A DNA stretch of 64,000 nucleotides from Rheinheimera sp. UJ63 (GTDB lineage: Bacteria > Pseudomonadota > Gammaproteobacteria > Enterobacterales > Alteromonadaceae). The notes below the pieces were generated by a model. The model searched no databases and was not told where the DNA came from. It worked only from the letters and a program-made list of their open reading frames with translations. Position 1 is the stretch's first letter; every line of letters begins with the position of its first letter. The stretch covers positions 372,001 through 436,000 of the forward strand of contig NZ_JAKGTQ010000001.1 in the NCBI RefSeq assembly GCF_021568285.1. Direction: 5' to 3'. Made by a program: the position numbers and the translations under genes. This document shows positions 10,100 through 12,159 of the stretch, piece by piece.

Positions 10100-11107
10100 A
10101 TGAGCAAGCAAACGATTACCGTGATTAAAGGCGATGGCATTGGCCCAAGTATTGTTGAAGCCGCGATTCAAGTACTGGAAAAAGCCGGTTGTGATTTTGA
10201 CTACGAATACGTGGATGCCGGTTTGACCGCGCTGGAAAAAACCGGTGAGTTGCTACCACAAGCCACCTTAGACGCTATTCTTAAAAACAAGATCACACTC
10301 AAAGGCCCTTTAACCACGCCAGTAGGTGAAGGCTTTACTTCAATTAACGTCACGTTACGTAAAAAGTTTAACCTGTACGCTAACGTTCGCCCAGTGATCT
10401 CGTTTAAAGGCACCAAAGCCCGTTACGAAAATATCGATATCATTACCATTCGTGAAAATACCGAAGGTATGTATTCAGGCCATGGCCAAACCGTGTCAGA
10501 AGATGGCCAAACTGCGCAAGCGTCGAGCATTGTCACTAAAGAAGGCGCGCGCCGTATTGCCGAGTTTGCTTTTGAAACCGCACGTCGCGAAAACCGCAAA
10601 AAAGTCACCATCGTGCACAAAGCCAATATCTTAAAATCGACTTCAGGTTTATTCCTGAAAACGGCGCGCGAGGTTGCTCAGTCGTATCCGGATATCGAAG
10701 TTCAAGAAATGATCGTTGATAACACTTGTATGCAACTGGTCATGAACCCACAGCAGTTTGACGTAATTGTGACCACTAACTTATTTGGTGATATTTTATC
10801 GGATCTGTGTGCAGGCCTTGTGGGTGGTTTAGGCATGGCGCCAGGTGCGAATATCGGTAAAGATTGTGCCATCTTTGAAGCGGTGCACGGTAGCGCGCCA
10901 GATATTGCGGGTAAAAACCTAGCAAACCCAAGTTCAGTGATCTTAGCGTCCATTCAGATGCTAGAATACTTAGGTATGAAAGATAAAGCCGATAAGATTT
11001 TAGCGGCATTAACTGACGTGATCGCCAGCGGTGATCGCACCACGCGTGATTTAGGGGGTAGCTTCGGCACAACCGACTTCACTGCAGCCCTGATCGAACG
11101 TTTATAA
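10100..11107 (+). CDS. icd: Isocitrate dehydrogenase, NAD-type by coenzyme residues
   Basis: A 335-residue cytosolic beta-decarboxylating dehydrogenase converting isocitrate to 2-oxoglutarate in the TCA cycle. Motifs include VIKGDGIGP at the N-terminus, IRENTEGMYSGHG, the metal-binding DILSDLCAGLVGG, and EAVHGSAPDIAGKNLANP near residue 260. The Asp-Ile after AP is the pair associated with NAD specificity; NADP enzymes such as E. coli Icd have Lys-Tyr there. It is shorter than E. coli Icd (416), as is usual for this class. Start ATG 10100 follows AAGGA at six bases; an upstream in-frame ATG at 10037 lies in the promoter and is rejected. Confidence 0.92.
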   Translation: MSKQTITVIKGDGIGPSIVEAAIQVLEKAGCDFDYEYVDAGLTALEKTGELLPQATLDAILKNKITLKGPLTTPVGEGFTSINVTLRKKFNLYANVRPVISFKGTKARYENIDIITIRENTEGMYSGHGQTVSEDGQTAQASSIVTKEGARRIAEFAFETARRENRKKVTIVHKANILKSTSGLFLKTAREVAQSYPDIEVQEMIVDNTCMQLVMNPQQFDVIVTTNLFGDILSDLCAGLVGGLGMAPGANIGKDCAIFEAVHGSAPDIAGKNLANPSSVILASIQMLEYLGMKDKADKILAALTDVIASGDRTTRDLGGSFGTTDFTAALIERL

Positions 11108-11121
11108 CATCTGATAGCCAG

Positions 11122-11145
11122 CGCCAGCAGCCATTGCCGCTGGCG
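11122..11145 (+). other. Hairpin between icd and the VF530 gene
   Basis: Arms CGCCAGC and GCTGGCG with a 10-base loop and no T run. It may stabilise the 3' end of icd mRNA or reduce readthrough into the downstream small gene. Confidence 0.4.
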
Positions 11146-11159
11146 TAATGGGAAGCCAC

Positions 11160-11387
11160 ATGACACAAACAAATAACCCCTTGCATGGCGTTACGCTAGA
11201 ACAAATTGTTACTGCGTTAGTGGTGCATTATGGTTGGCCCAAGCTGGCAGAGCAGATTGACATTAACTGCTTTAAAAAAGATCCGTCGGTAAAAAGTAGC
11301 CTAAAGTTTTTACGGCGTACCCCATGGGCACGCGAAAAAGTCGAAGCGCTCTTTATCAGCAATAAACTGTATAGCAAGGTTAATTGA
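11160..11387 (+). CDS. VF530 / DUF2132 family DNA-binding protein
   Basis: A 75-residue basic protein matching the VF530 (DUF2132) family, a small helical fold described as DNA binding in Vibrio. It has [17 protein letters not shown], the conserved [29 protein letters not shown] and [14 protein letters not shown] 11160 is chosen over 11148 because GGGAAG lies just before it. It follows icd after 52 bases and was probably transcribed through to the terminator now interrupted by the insertion at 11410-11563. The physiological role is unknown. Confidence 0.88.
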
Positions 11388-11390
11388 ATG

Positions 11391-11573
11391 GAAAAAGCCA
11401 GCTAACGCTTAATTAATGTCAGTTAAGCATGACCTGTTTGCACTAAATCAACCGTTGAAGGCCATGGATGGCCGGAATCGAGCCTCAGGGATGATTCATG
11501 GCGTGTTGATGTGAGCAAACCGCGTCATGCTAAACACTAAATGATCGGTATTATGCTAACGCTGGCTTTTTTA
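11391..11573 (+). terminator. Intrinsic terminator split by an inserted repeat
   Basis: The left arm AAAAAGCCAGC at 11392-11402 and the right arm GCTGGCTTTTTT at 11561-11572 are complementary. Without the intervening 154 bases they would form a perfect terminator stem with loop TAAC and a T run. The element D insertion now occupies the loop. Confidence 0.65.
11410..11563 (+). mobile_element. Structured repeat (element D) inserted with 9-bp direct repeats
   Basis: GCTAACGCT occurs at 11401-11409 and again at 11555-11563, flanking or bounding a 145-base insert that has no gene. The insert has imperfect inverted arms (TTAAGCATGACCTGTTTGC on the left, complementary to GCAAACCGCGTCATGCTAA on the right). 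Its two inner motifs carry CATGGATG and CAGGGATG. The order arm, hairpin, GAGC, hairpin, GGCGTG, arm matches the elements at 41652 and 62821, so it belongs to the same family. No transposase is present, so movement would need help in trans. Confidence 0.6.
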
Positions 11574-11592
11574 TTAATGCTATTGTGATAGC

Positions 11593-12159
11593 CTAACCAT
11601 TATAAATGGTGCCACCCTCTTGCAAATAATGCTGTAGCACTGCAGCTGCAGCATCACGCTCCACTAACCGCACCACTTCAATACCCACATCAGTTAGATA
11701 CTGATAACTTTGCTCGTATACAGGGCCTTCATCAAAACCAATTGCTCGCGCATCATCGGCGGTTGCCGCACAGACCAAACGCTTCACCCCACTCCACAAG
11801 GTGCCGCCTAAGCACATAGCGCAAGGCTCACAGGAAGTAAACAACTCGCGCTTAACACCATCTGCAGACAAGCTAAAGCTTTGCAGTGATTGCTCAGCCA
11901 GCATAATCGCCATCATCTCGCCATGGGCAGTGGAGTTACTTAACGGCATGACCCGGTTAACCCCTACACTGAGTAACTTTCCGCTTTCGATATCAAAAAT
12001 CGCACTACCAAAAGGGCCACCCGTGCCACGCAATACGTTTTGCCGGGATAACTCTATGGCTAGCGCCATTTTTTGCTGATCGTTTTGATACGTCTGCTGC
12101 CAATCAACCACCTCGTTGATCCAGTCAGGCAGCGTTAAAGTCAGTTGGGTTAGGCTCAT
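11593..12159 (-). CDS. guaD: Guanine deaminase-like nucleoside/base deaminase
   Basis: A 188-residue cytidine-deaminase-fold zinc enzyme. The metal motif is HGEMMAI (His plus catalytic Glu) with CEPCAMCLGG (two Cys). GGPFGSAIFD and the C-terminal IGFDEGP(V)YE region resemble GuaD-type guanine deaminases, which turn guanine into xanthine. Its start overlaps the gpt stop by four bases (ATGA), so it is translationally coupled to a xanthine-guanine phosphoribosyltransferase. That context supports a purine-base substrate. A related deaminase activity (for example on another base) cannot be excluded. Confidence 0.75.
   Translation of the reverse strand: MSLTQLTLTLPDWINEVVDWQQTYQNDQQKMALAIELSRQNVLRGTGGPFGSAIFDIESGKLLSVGVNRVMPLSNSTAHGEMMAIMLAEQSLQSFSLSADGVKRELFTSCEPCAMCLGGTLWSGVKRLVCAATADDARAIGFDEGPVYEQSYQYLTDVGIEVVRLVERDAAAAVLQHYLQEGGTIYNG

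Follow-up and report, generated by a model that had tools for sequence, protein, structure and literature searches.

In Rheinheimera sp. UJ63, the VF530 gene and a guanine-deaminase gene convergent with it are separated by an intrinsic terminator whose loop is interrupted by a 144-bp insertion that carries ends of the IS4 subgroup. The favored reading, at a probability of just under nine in ten, is that this insertion is an IS4-subgroup mini-element (MITE) placed in the terminator center by an IS4-type transposase, and that transposases of this subgroup select terminators. Comparison among genomes documents the insertion and its duplication, an empty site, ends present in multiple copies, an autonomous partner recognized by its ends, and a preference of site. 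Taken alone, the element found in the window (the whole 64,000-nucleotide stretch of DNA that was analyzed) is an ordinary MITE, and its interest lies in pointing to a general habit of IS4-subgroup transposons.

A mini-element inside a terminator loop

The joined flanks of the insertion read AAAAA-GCCAGC-TAAC-GCTGGC-TTTTTT, a perfect two-way terminator, which confirms the claim of the preliminary description that excision restores matched arms around a TAAC loop. The 9-bp repeat GCTAACGCT described there at 11401-11409 and 11555-11563 is present in the sequence. Its positions stand, while the duplication is probably 10 bp long with one mismatch instead of 9 bp, given that the element ends in TAAT...ATTA (Table 1). 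The right end of the element, TAATACCGATCATTTAG, matches the IS4-subgroup inverted repeat, and the left end is degenerate and matches it only partly. The element holds no gene and is too short to encode a transposase.

Table 1. Features of the interrupted terminator and its surroundings (window coordinates)
Feature	Position	Strand	Basis or remark
Upstream gene, VF530 (name from the preliminary description)	11160..11387	+	Open frame; adjoins the deaminase gene in 15 other genus-set genomes
Host terminator, 5' half	11392..11402		A-tract 11392-11396 and arm GCCAGC 11397-11402, from sequence; arm pairs with 11561-11566
Left target-duplication copy, AGCTAACGCT	11400..11409		9/10 identical to right copy
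Mini-element (MITE), 144 bp, TAAT...ATTA	11410..11553		Limits set by inverted repeats and duplication; BLAST copies
Left terminal inverted repeat, degenerate, TAATTAATGTCAGTTAAG (IS end: TAATGCCGATCAGTTAAG)	11410..11427	+	
Internal structured module	11443..11522		Common to many genus repeats without IS4-type ends
Right terminal inverted repeat, TAATACCGATCATTTAGTGT reading inward	11534..11553	-	
Right target-duplication copy, TGCTAACGCT	11554..11563		
Host terminator, 3' half	11561..11572		Arm GCTGGC 11561-11566 and T-tract 11567-11572
Convergent downstream gene, guanine deaminase (name from the preliminary description)	11593..12159	-	Relatives at ≤85% identity

The element is absent from the interval between the VF530 and deaminase genes in all 15 other genus-set genomes where the two lie no more than 144 bp apart (27 genus loci were fetched, and in 12 of these VF530 was not found within the fetched flank). 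One of the 15 (L078) carries a short uninterrupted terminator, the kind of strain that the preliminary description had proposed to look for. Its interval equals that of Alishewanella longhuensis (L108), which reads AAAAACCAGC-ATTTC-GCTGGTTTTTTT after VF530 and has A-T at the stem base where the window has G-C. The other 14 intervals measure 16 to 48 bp in 13 cases and 101 bp in one, and none has an evident terminator by eye; the long structure of the window was seen in none of the 15. A blastn search of 53 orthologous loci (27 plus 26, largely from the same genomes) returned no full copy of the element, nor was there any blastn match to it in R. maricola (L116), in which 2768 bp separate the two genes. 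Because the orthologous interval is empty and relatives hold no full copy, the simplest history would be that of a terminator in this branch that was later split by the element.

Partial matches to the internal module (element 29-121, 77 to 82% identity) occur in 8 of the 53 loci, which are four genomes seen twice, and none of them falls inside the interval; by their coordinates, two lie past VF530 and two on the far side of the deaminase gene. In these four relatives the module stands near icd-VF530-deaminase without IS4 ends (L093 2356-2448, L090 2379-2471, L086 2101-2185, and L080 1374-1458). Its presence elsewhere in this neighborhood suggests that the region received the module more than once.

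The element is multicopy, with 15 BLAST places that correspond to 13 loci in its own genome, the window copy included. Duplications of 9 to 10 bp, which had been named as a sign of insertion, flank other copies: CTGCATTGG (L011, 9 bp), AACTTAGGTT (L013, 10 bp), and AATAATACGG (L021, perfect 10 bp). At L010 the two repeats are identical in 9 of 10 bp, and a duplication was looked for and not found at L012, L014, L015, L016, and L020. Together with the empty orthologous site, these duplications bear out the earlier proposal of an insertion with target-site duplication. The IS4-type inverted repeats are better kept in L013, L021, and L336 than in the window copy.

Both flanks could be set for 11 copies in the own genome, namely, the 13 loci minus L016 and L018 (no left end) and L017 and L019 (module only), plus L335 and L336. 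The junctions of decayed copies (L012, L014, L015, L020, L335, and L336) were set by eye, with L020 lacking a right inverted repeat. Terminator arms are split by 7 of these 11 copies, compared with 19 of 110 mismatched pairs of left and right flanks, and 183 of 3000 random window points pass the same split-terminator test. The four copies without a split terminator are L010, L014, L015, and L021. L336 (C1:980980-981017) and L335 (C1:692135) are palindromes of 38 to 40 bp, formed by two IS4-type inverted repeats head to head and located in terminator loops; they are possibly MITEs stripped of their interior.

Matches to the element were found in 30 of the 60 genomes searched, own included, all 30 belonging to its genus, and many of them cover only the internal module; 29 genomes outside the genus gave no match. 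In L017, in L019, and in loci of relatives, the module is bounded by other, non-IS4 ends. L017 (C11:454202) and L019 (C1:185326) present the core, in whole or in part, between the ends TTTTTTCTG and CAGAAAAAA, and another hairpin unit of the CATGGATG type lies nearby. Since the structured core is flanked by these other ends, repeats of more than one type carry the module.

Two autonomous IS4-group copies exist in the own genome, where they are seen as 123-bp ends at contig ends; the IS interior, including the transposase of this partner, is absent from the assembly. In genome G005, a complete IS of 1431 bp matches the two ends at 91% and 93% identity. The 445-amino-acid open frame of this G005 element contains the domains Nterm_IS4 (1e-26) and DDE_Tnp_1 (6e-23), and the YREK motif Y(2)R(3)E(6)K, as defined in PMC2266710, can be read by eye in YSTRWEIELGFREIK of this product, which is that of a relative and not of the own-genome copy. 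The absence of an internal gene, the multiple copies, and the occurrence alongside them of an IS4-group element whose ends match, and of which just the ends are known, agree with the earlier view of a non-autonomous mobile element. A search of the own genome with Pfam PF01609 retrieved one transposase only, which has no IS4-type ends by eye. This DDE_Tnp_1 transposase (L186, C11:862457-863266) lies near inverted GCTAACGC/GCGTTAGC motifs, an arrangement reminiscent of an integron cassette array. Across the order, the 18-base IS end with at most one mismatch occurs in 65 of 295 genomes and 29 of 99 genera, as a pattern count that includes non-IS matches.

Target sites of autonomous copies and their relatives

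Thirty-three target sites of autonomous copies were reconstructed in five genomes of the genus (G005, 5; G016, 13; G027, 9; G004, 4; own genome, 2). The five sites of G005 have both flanks on one contig, and the other 28 were pieced together from contig ends that have a duplication of 9 bp or more in common. Intrinsic terminators make up 32 of the 33 sites, as the suggestion that terminator loops are favored targets would have it, and at 29 sites the hairpin center lies at most 0.5 bp from the center of the duplication. The sole failing site, in G004, has a 4-bp stem. The duplications measure 10 bp (17 sites), 11 bp (15 sites), or 12 bp (1 site).

The terminator test called for a stem with 5 or more pairs, 3 or more of them G-C, and no more than 1 mismatch, a loop of 3 to 8, and at least 5 A in the 8 positions before or at least 5 T in the 8 positions after. 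A first scorer let stems run on into the A/T tracts and overlooked genuine terminators, giving 30 of 33; the revised scorer, which takes any qualifying stem length, was devised after the sites were seen and was applied identically to the background. Under it, 340 of 63,880 window positions and 68 of 6,121 intergenic ones (1.1%) pass, these being positions and not independent sites, taken from the own window only, with genes delimited by a rough ORF call (63 called).

Of 60 loci fetched, 11 were dropped because they looked non-IS-like inside the end match by eye (L221, L222, L224, L225, and L227-L233). Among the 81 loci that went into pairing, L308 had no end and seven unclassified ends were set aside (L250, L252, L331, L332, L339, L340, and L341). 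Twelve ends found no partner (L239, L253, L309, L311, L273, L325, L323, L234, L274, L226, L223, and L220), and the 33 sites account for the other 66 ends. By eye, most of these 12 ends show an A-tract and an arm, with L220 and L273 not clearly doing so.

IS4 of Escherichia coli presents a similar pattern, in a sample made of 21 of the 60 records listed (2739 have a match) plus K-12, which is non-random and favors multi-copy and insG-unlabelled records. The 22 loci from 22 genomes were grouped by eye into 11 distinct sites, L304 and L305 being placed by their neighbors (adhE and bamD). Eight of the 11 sites are terminators, those of glgP, crr, bamD, csp, adhE (both orientations), glcA, metK, and fum; the remaining three are the K-12 site and two sites within genes.

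In four genomes of other genera, terminators are found at 17 of 24 IS copies (7/7 in G606, 3/3 in G638, 6/8 in G433, and 1/6 in G516). By these counts, the preference for terminators differs between members, being very strong in several of them but weak in one or more. Three of the six scored copies in G516 (L408, L410, and L411) have one target sequence in common. This shared context suggests either duplication of the locus that contains the IS there or transfer of the IS by recombination. The loci fetched were 13 of 39 matches in G636, 7 of 10 in G606, 9 of 9 in G433, 8 of 8 in G516, and 3 of 5 in G638, and nine ends without a duplication were left uncounted.

G636 harbors seven elements of 133 to 396 bp with IS4-type ends, five of which lie by eye at the center of a palindromic repeat, whereas two pass the terminator test; most of these MITEs occupy palindromes without T-tracts. 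The elements of about 134 bp at L377-L389 have a 14-bp duplication and are mostly centered in a dispersed CGCCATTTATGGCG-like palindrome. MITEs of G393 have a different interior, and by eye two of three lie in terminators, with none evident at L279. A further 29 single flanks, together with class-level flanks outside G393, were viewed unscored, and several have no evident terminator (e.g., L350, L353, L356, L359, L370, L275, and L280). As a whole, the sites suggest that IS4-group transposons, E. coli IS4 included, seek out terminators.

Basis of target choice and fate of the interrupted terminator

The chief alternative holds that the target is the bipartite A/T motif alone (AAA about 20 bp before TTT), terminators being used for containing this motif and the hairpin being irrelevant. 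This would account for the presence of AAAN18-22TTT at 30 of the 33 genus sites and at all three E. coli sites that are not terminators. However, only 21 of 95 intergenic AAAN18-22TTT positions pass the terminator test, against 32 of the 33 insertion sites, the motif as defined is missing at three of the eight E. coli terminator sites (glgP, csp, and glcA), and five of the seven G636 MITEs are centered by eye in palindromes without tracts, which makes the motif alone an unlikely target. Since the tracts alone fall short and tract-free palindromes are used in G636, we infer that the transposase reads the palindrome, or a hairpin extruded from it, in addition to the A/T tracts.

Under terminator selection as favored here, an IS4-type transposase would insert the MITE at the center of an intrinsic terminator, where a staggered cut of about 10 bp would duplicate the loop together with the upper part of the stem. 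The selected target would consist of two A/T tracts about 20 bp apart that flank a GC-rich palindrome, and the cut would be symmetric about the dyad axis, with 10 to 14 bp, or approximately one helix turn, between the strand transfers. Such a habit may be tolerated in two ways, as autonomous copies would supply inward terminators at both ends and the MITE would let the host arms pair again.

Inward-facing terminators were found at 14 of 14 IS ends checked (12 distinct sequences, both ends of E. coli IS4 included), compared with 28 of 400 random window stretches. At right ends, the hairpin with its T-tract is formed by the inverted repeat and its complement (within positions 2-30), and at left ends the hairpin lies at about 48-90 and the T-tract stops at the transposase start codon. 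An insertion that breaks the host terminator would thus bring replacements, and transcripts from either side are predicted to end within about 100 bp, given the inward hairpins with T-tracts at both ends. Because the hairpin at the right end comes close to being a head-to-head pair of inverted repeats, it could seed palindromes of 38 to 40 bp and MITEs. A broader proposal, offered tentatively and at somewhat less than even odds, is that IS4-subgroup elements are terminator-swapping transposons, in which the terminator would be recognized, perhaps as an extruded hairpin between A/T tracts, and cut with dyad symmetry, two inward terminators would replace the destroyed one, and the right-end hairpin would seed palindromes and MITEs.

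In the window MITE, no inward T-tract hairpin like those of the IS ends was seen. The predicted probability that the host stem re-forms across the insert is 0.91 to 0.99 in seven copies, and on such modeling an insertion in a terminator loop may be harmless. A need for the MITE's own fold to reunite the host arms was considered and rejected as unsupported at equilibrium, because medians for 100 shuffled inserts each lay within 0.01. The inserts fold better than their own shuffles. Re-formation of the host stem is predicted to be no worse when the insert is shuffled, so help from the fold of the element itself is not demonstrable.

This bears on the idea that the MITE was co-opted as a terminator or as a stabilizer of mRNA 3' ends and was retained for that role. 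The frequency of the internal module in the genus, also without IS4 ends, and the superior folding of the inserts are in line with it. It is nevertheless improbable, as copies vary in ends, length, and decay, the host stem is predicted to form just as well around shuffled sequence, and, among the compared genomes, only the own genome has the element between the VF530 and deaminase genes. Near-random insertion followed by survival only in terminators is less probable still. Insertions within genes are usually harmful and terminators are intergenic, as this account requires, yet 32 of 33 sites stand against a 1.1% intergenic background, the duplication is centered on the hairpin to within 0.5 bp at 29 of them, and E. 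coli copies persist within yicI (2 genomes) and an oxidoreductase gene.

The 211-nucleotide stretch 11380-11590 has a strong predicted fold (-68.1 kcal/mol against a shuffle mean of -49.5 kcal/mol; z, -4.55; 0 of 200 shuffles as good). That the stretch represents an extended terminator or RNA, whether ancestral or functional, with a 9-bp repeat arising by chance, is scarcely credible in spite of this fold, in view of the empty orthologous site, the copies with different duplications at unrelated loci, the transposon-type ends, and an Rfam search of window 11000-12000 (E up to 1) with no match at the element and a sole sub-threshold hit (E 0.086) outside it.

Relation to known mobile elements

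The target consensus of E. coli IS4 is AAAN20TTT, and a literature search for this consensus string found no paper. An IS4 insertion in the pheST attenuator was reportedly noted long ago. Within the open-access literature, with most subscription journals lying outside the search, no statement was found that IS4 targets are terminators. PMC2266710, in its available text, records a striking target-arm specificity of some IS4-subgroup members, and its main text contains the word "terminator" 0 times. Terminator recognition would lend structural meaning to a target preference previously described in terms of conserved target arms, and would do so for an insertion sequence that is among the oldest known. 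A transposon that both enters terminators and provides substitutes for them would clearly exemplify low-harm targeting, of relevance to tools for safe-site integration and to the way in which MITEs arrive at gene ends.

E. coli IS4 (K-12 insG) resembles the own-genome IS in its ends, TAATGCCGATCAGTTAAG and TAATGCCAGTCAGTTAAG, and in its duplications of about 10 bp, whereas the window element differs from it in having no transposase. Like the IS4 subgroup described in the available part of PMC2266710, the G005 relative has an IS4 N-terminal domain, a DDE domain, and the motif Y(2)R(3)E(6)K. IS1272/TnSha1 of staphylococci also targets hairpins, several of them confirmed terminators (PMC4923244, available text). 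It deletes or replaces the stem-loop without target duplication, according to the accessible portions of PMC4923244 and PMC5678879, whereas here both hairpin arms are kept and 10 to 12 bp are duplicated at the center, which sets these insertions apart from replacement of the IS1272 type.

ISRm22, which belongs to the IS4 family (IS4Sa), is likewise directed to palindromic extragenic DNA (PMC1525189, available text), but it belongs to another subgroup and its targets are REP elements instead of terminators; the same text reports that, in one Shigella genome, 3 of 11 IS4 copies adjoin REPs. Bacterial class C group II introns are also mobile and use intrinsic terminators as landmarks, but they are retroelements that insert downstream of the terminator (PMC3522654, available text). 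One distant match to the IS ends (L075, C18:22492) adjoins, by eye, an apparent group II intron with its reverse transcriptase gene.
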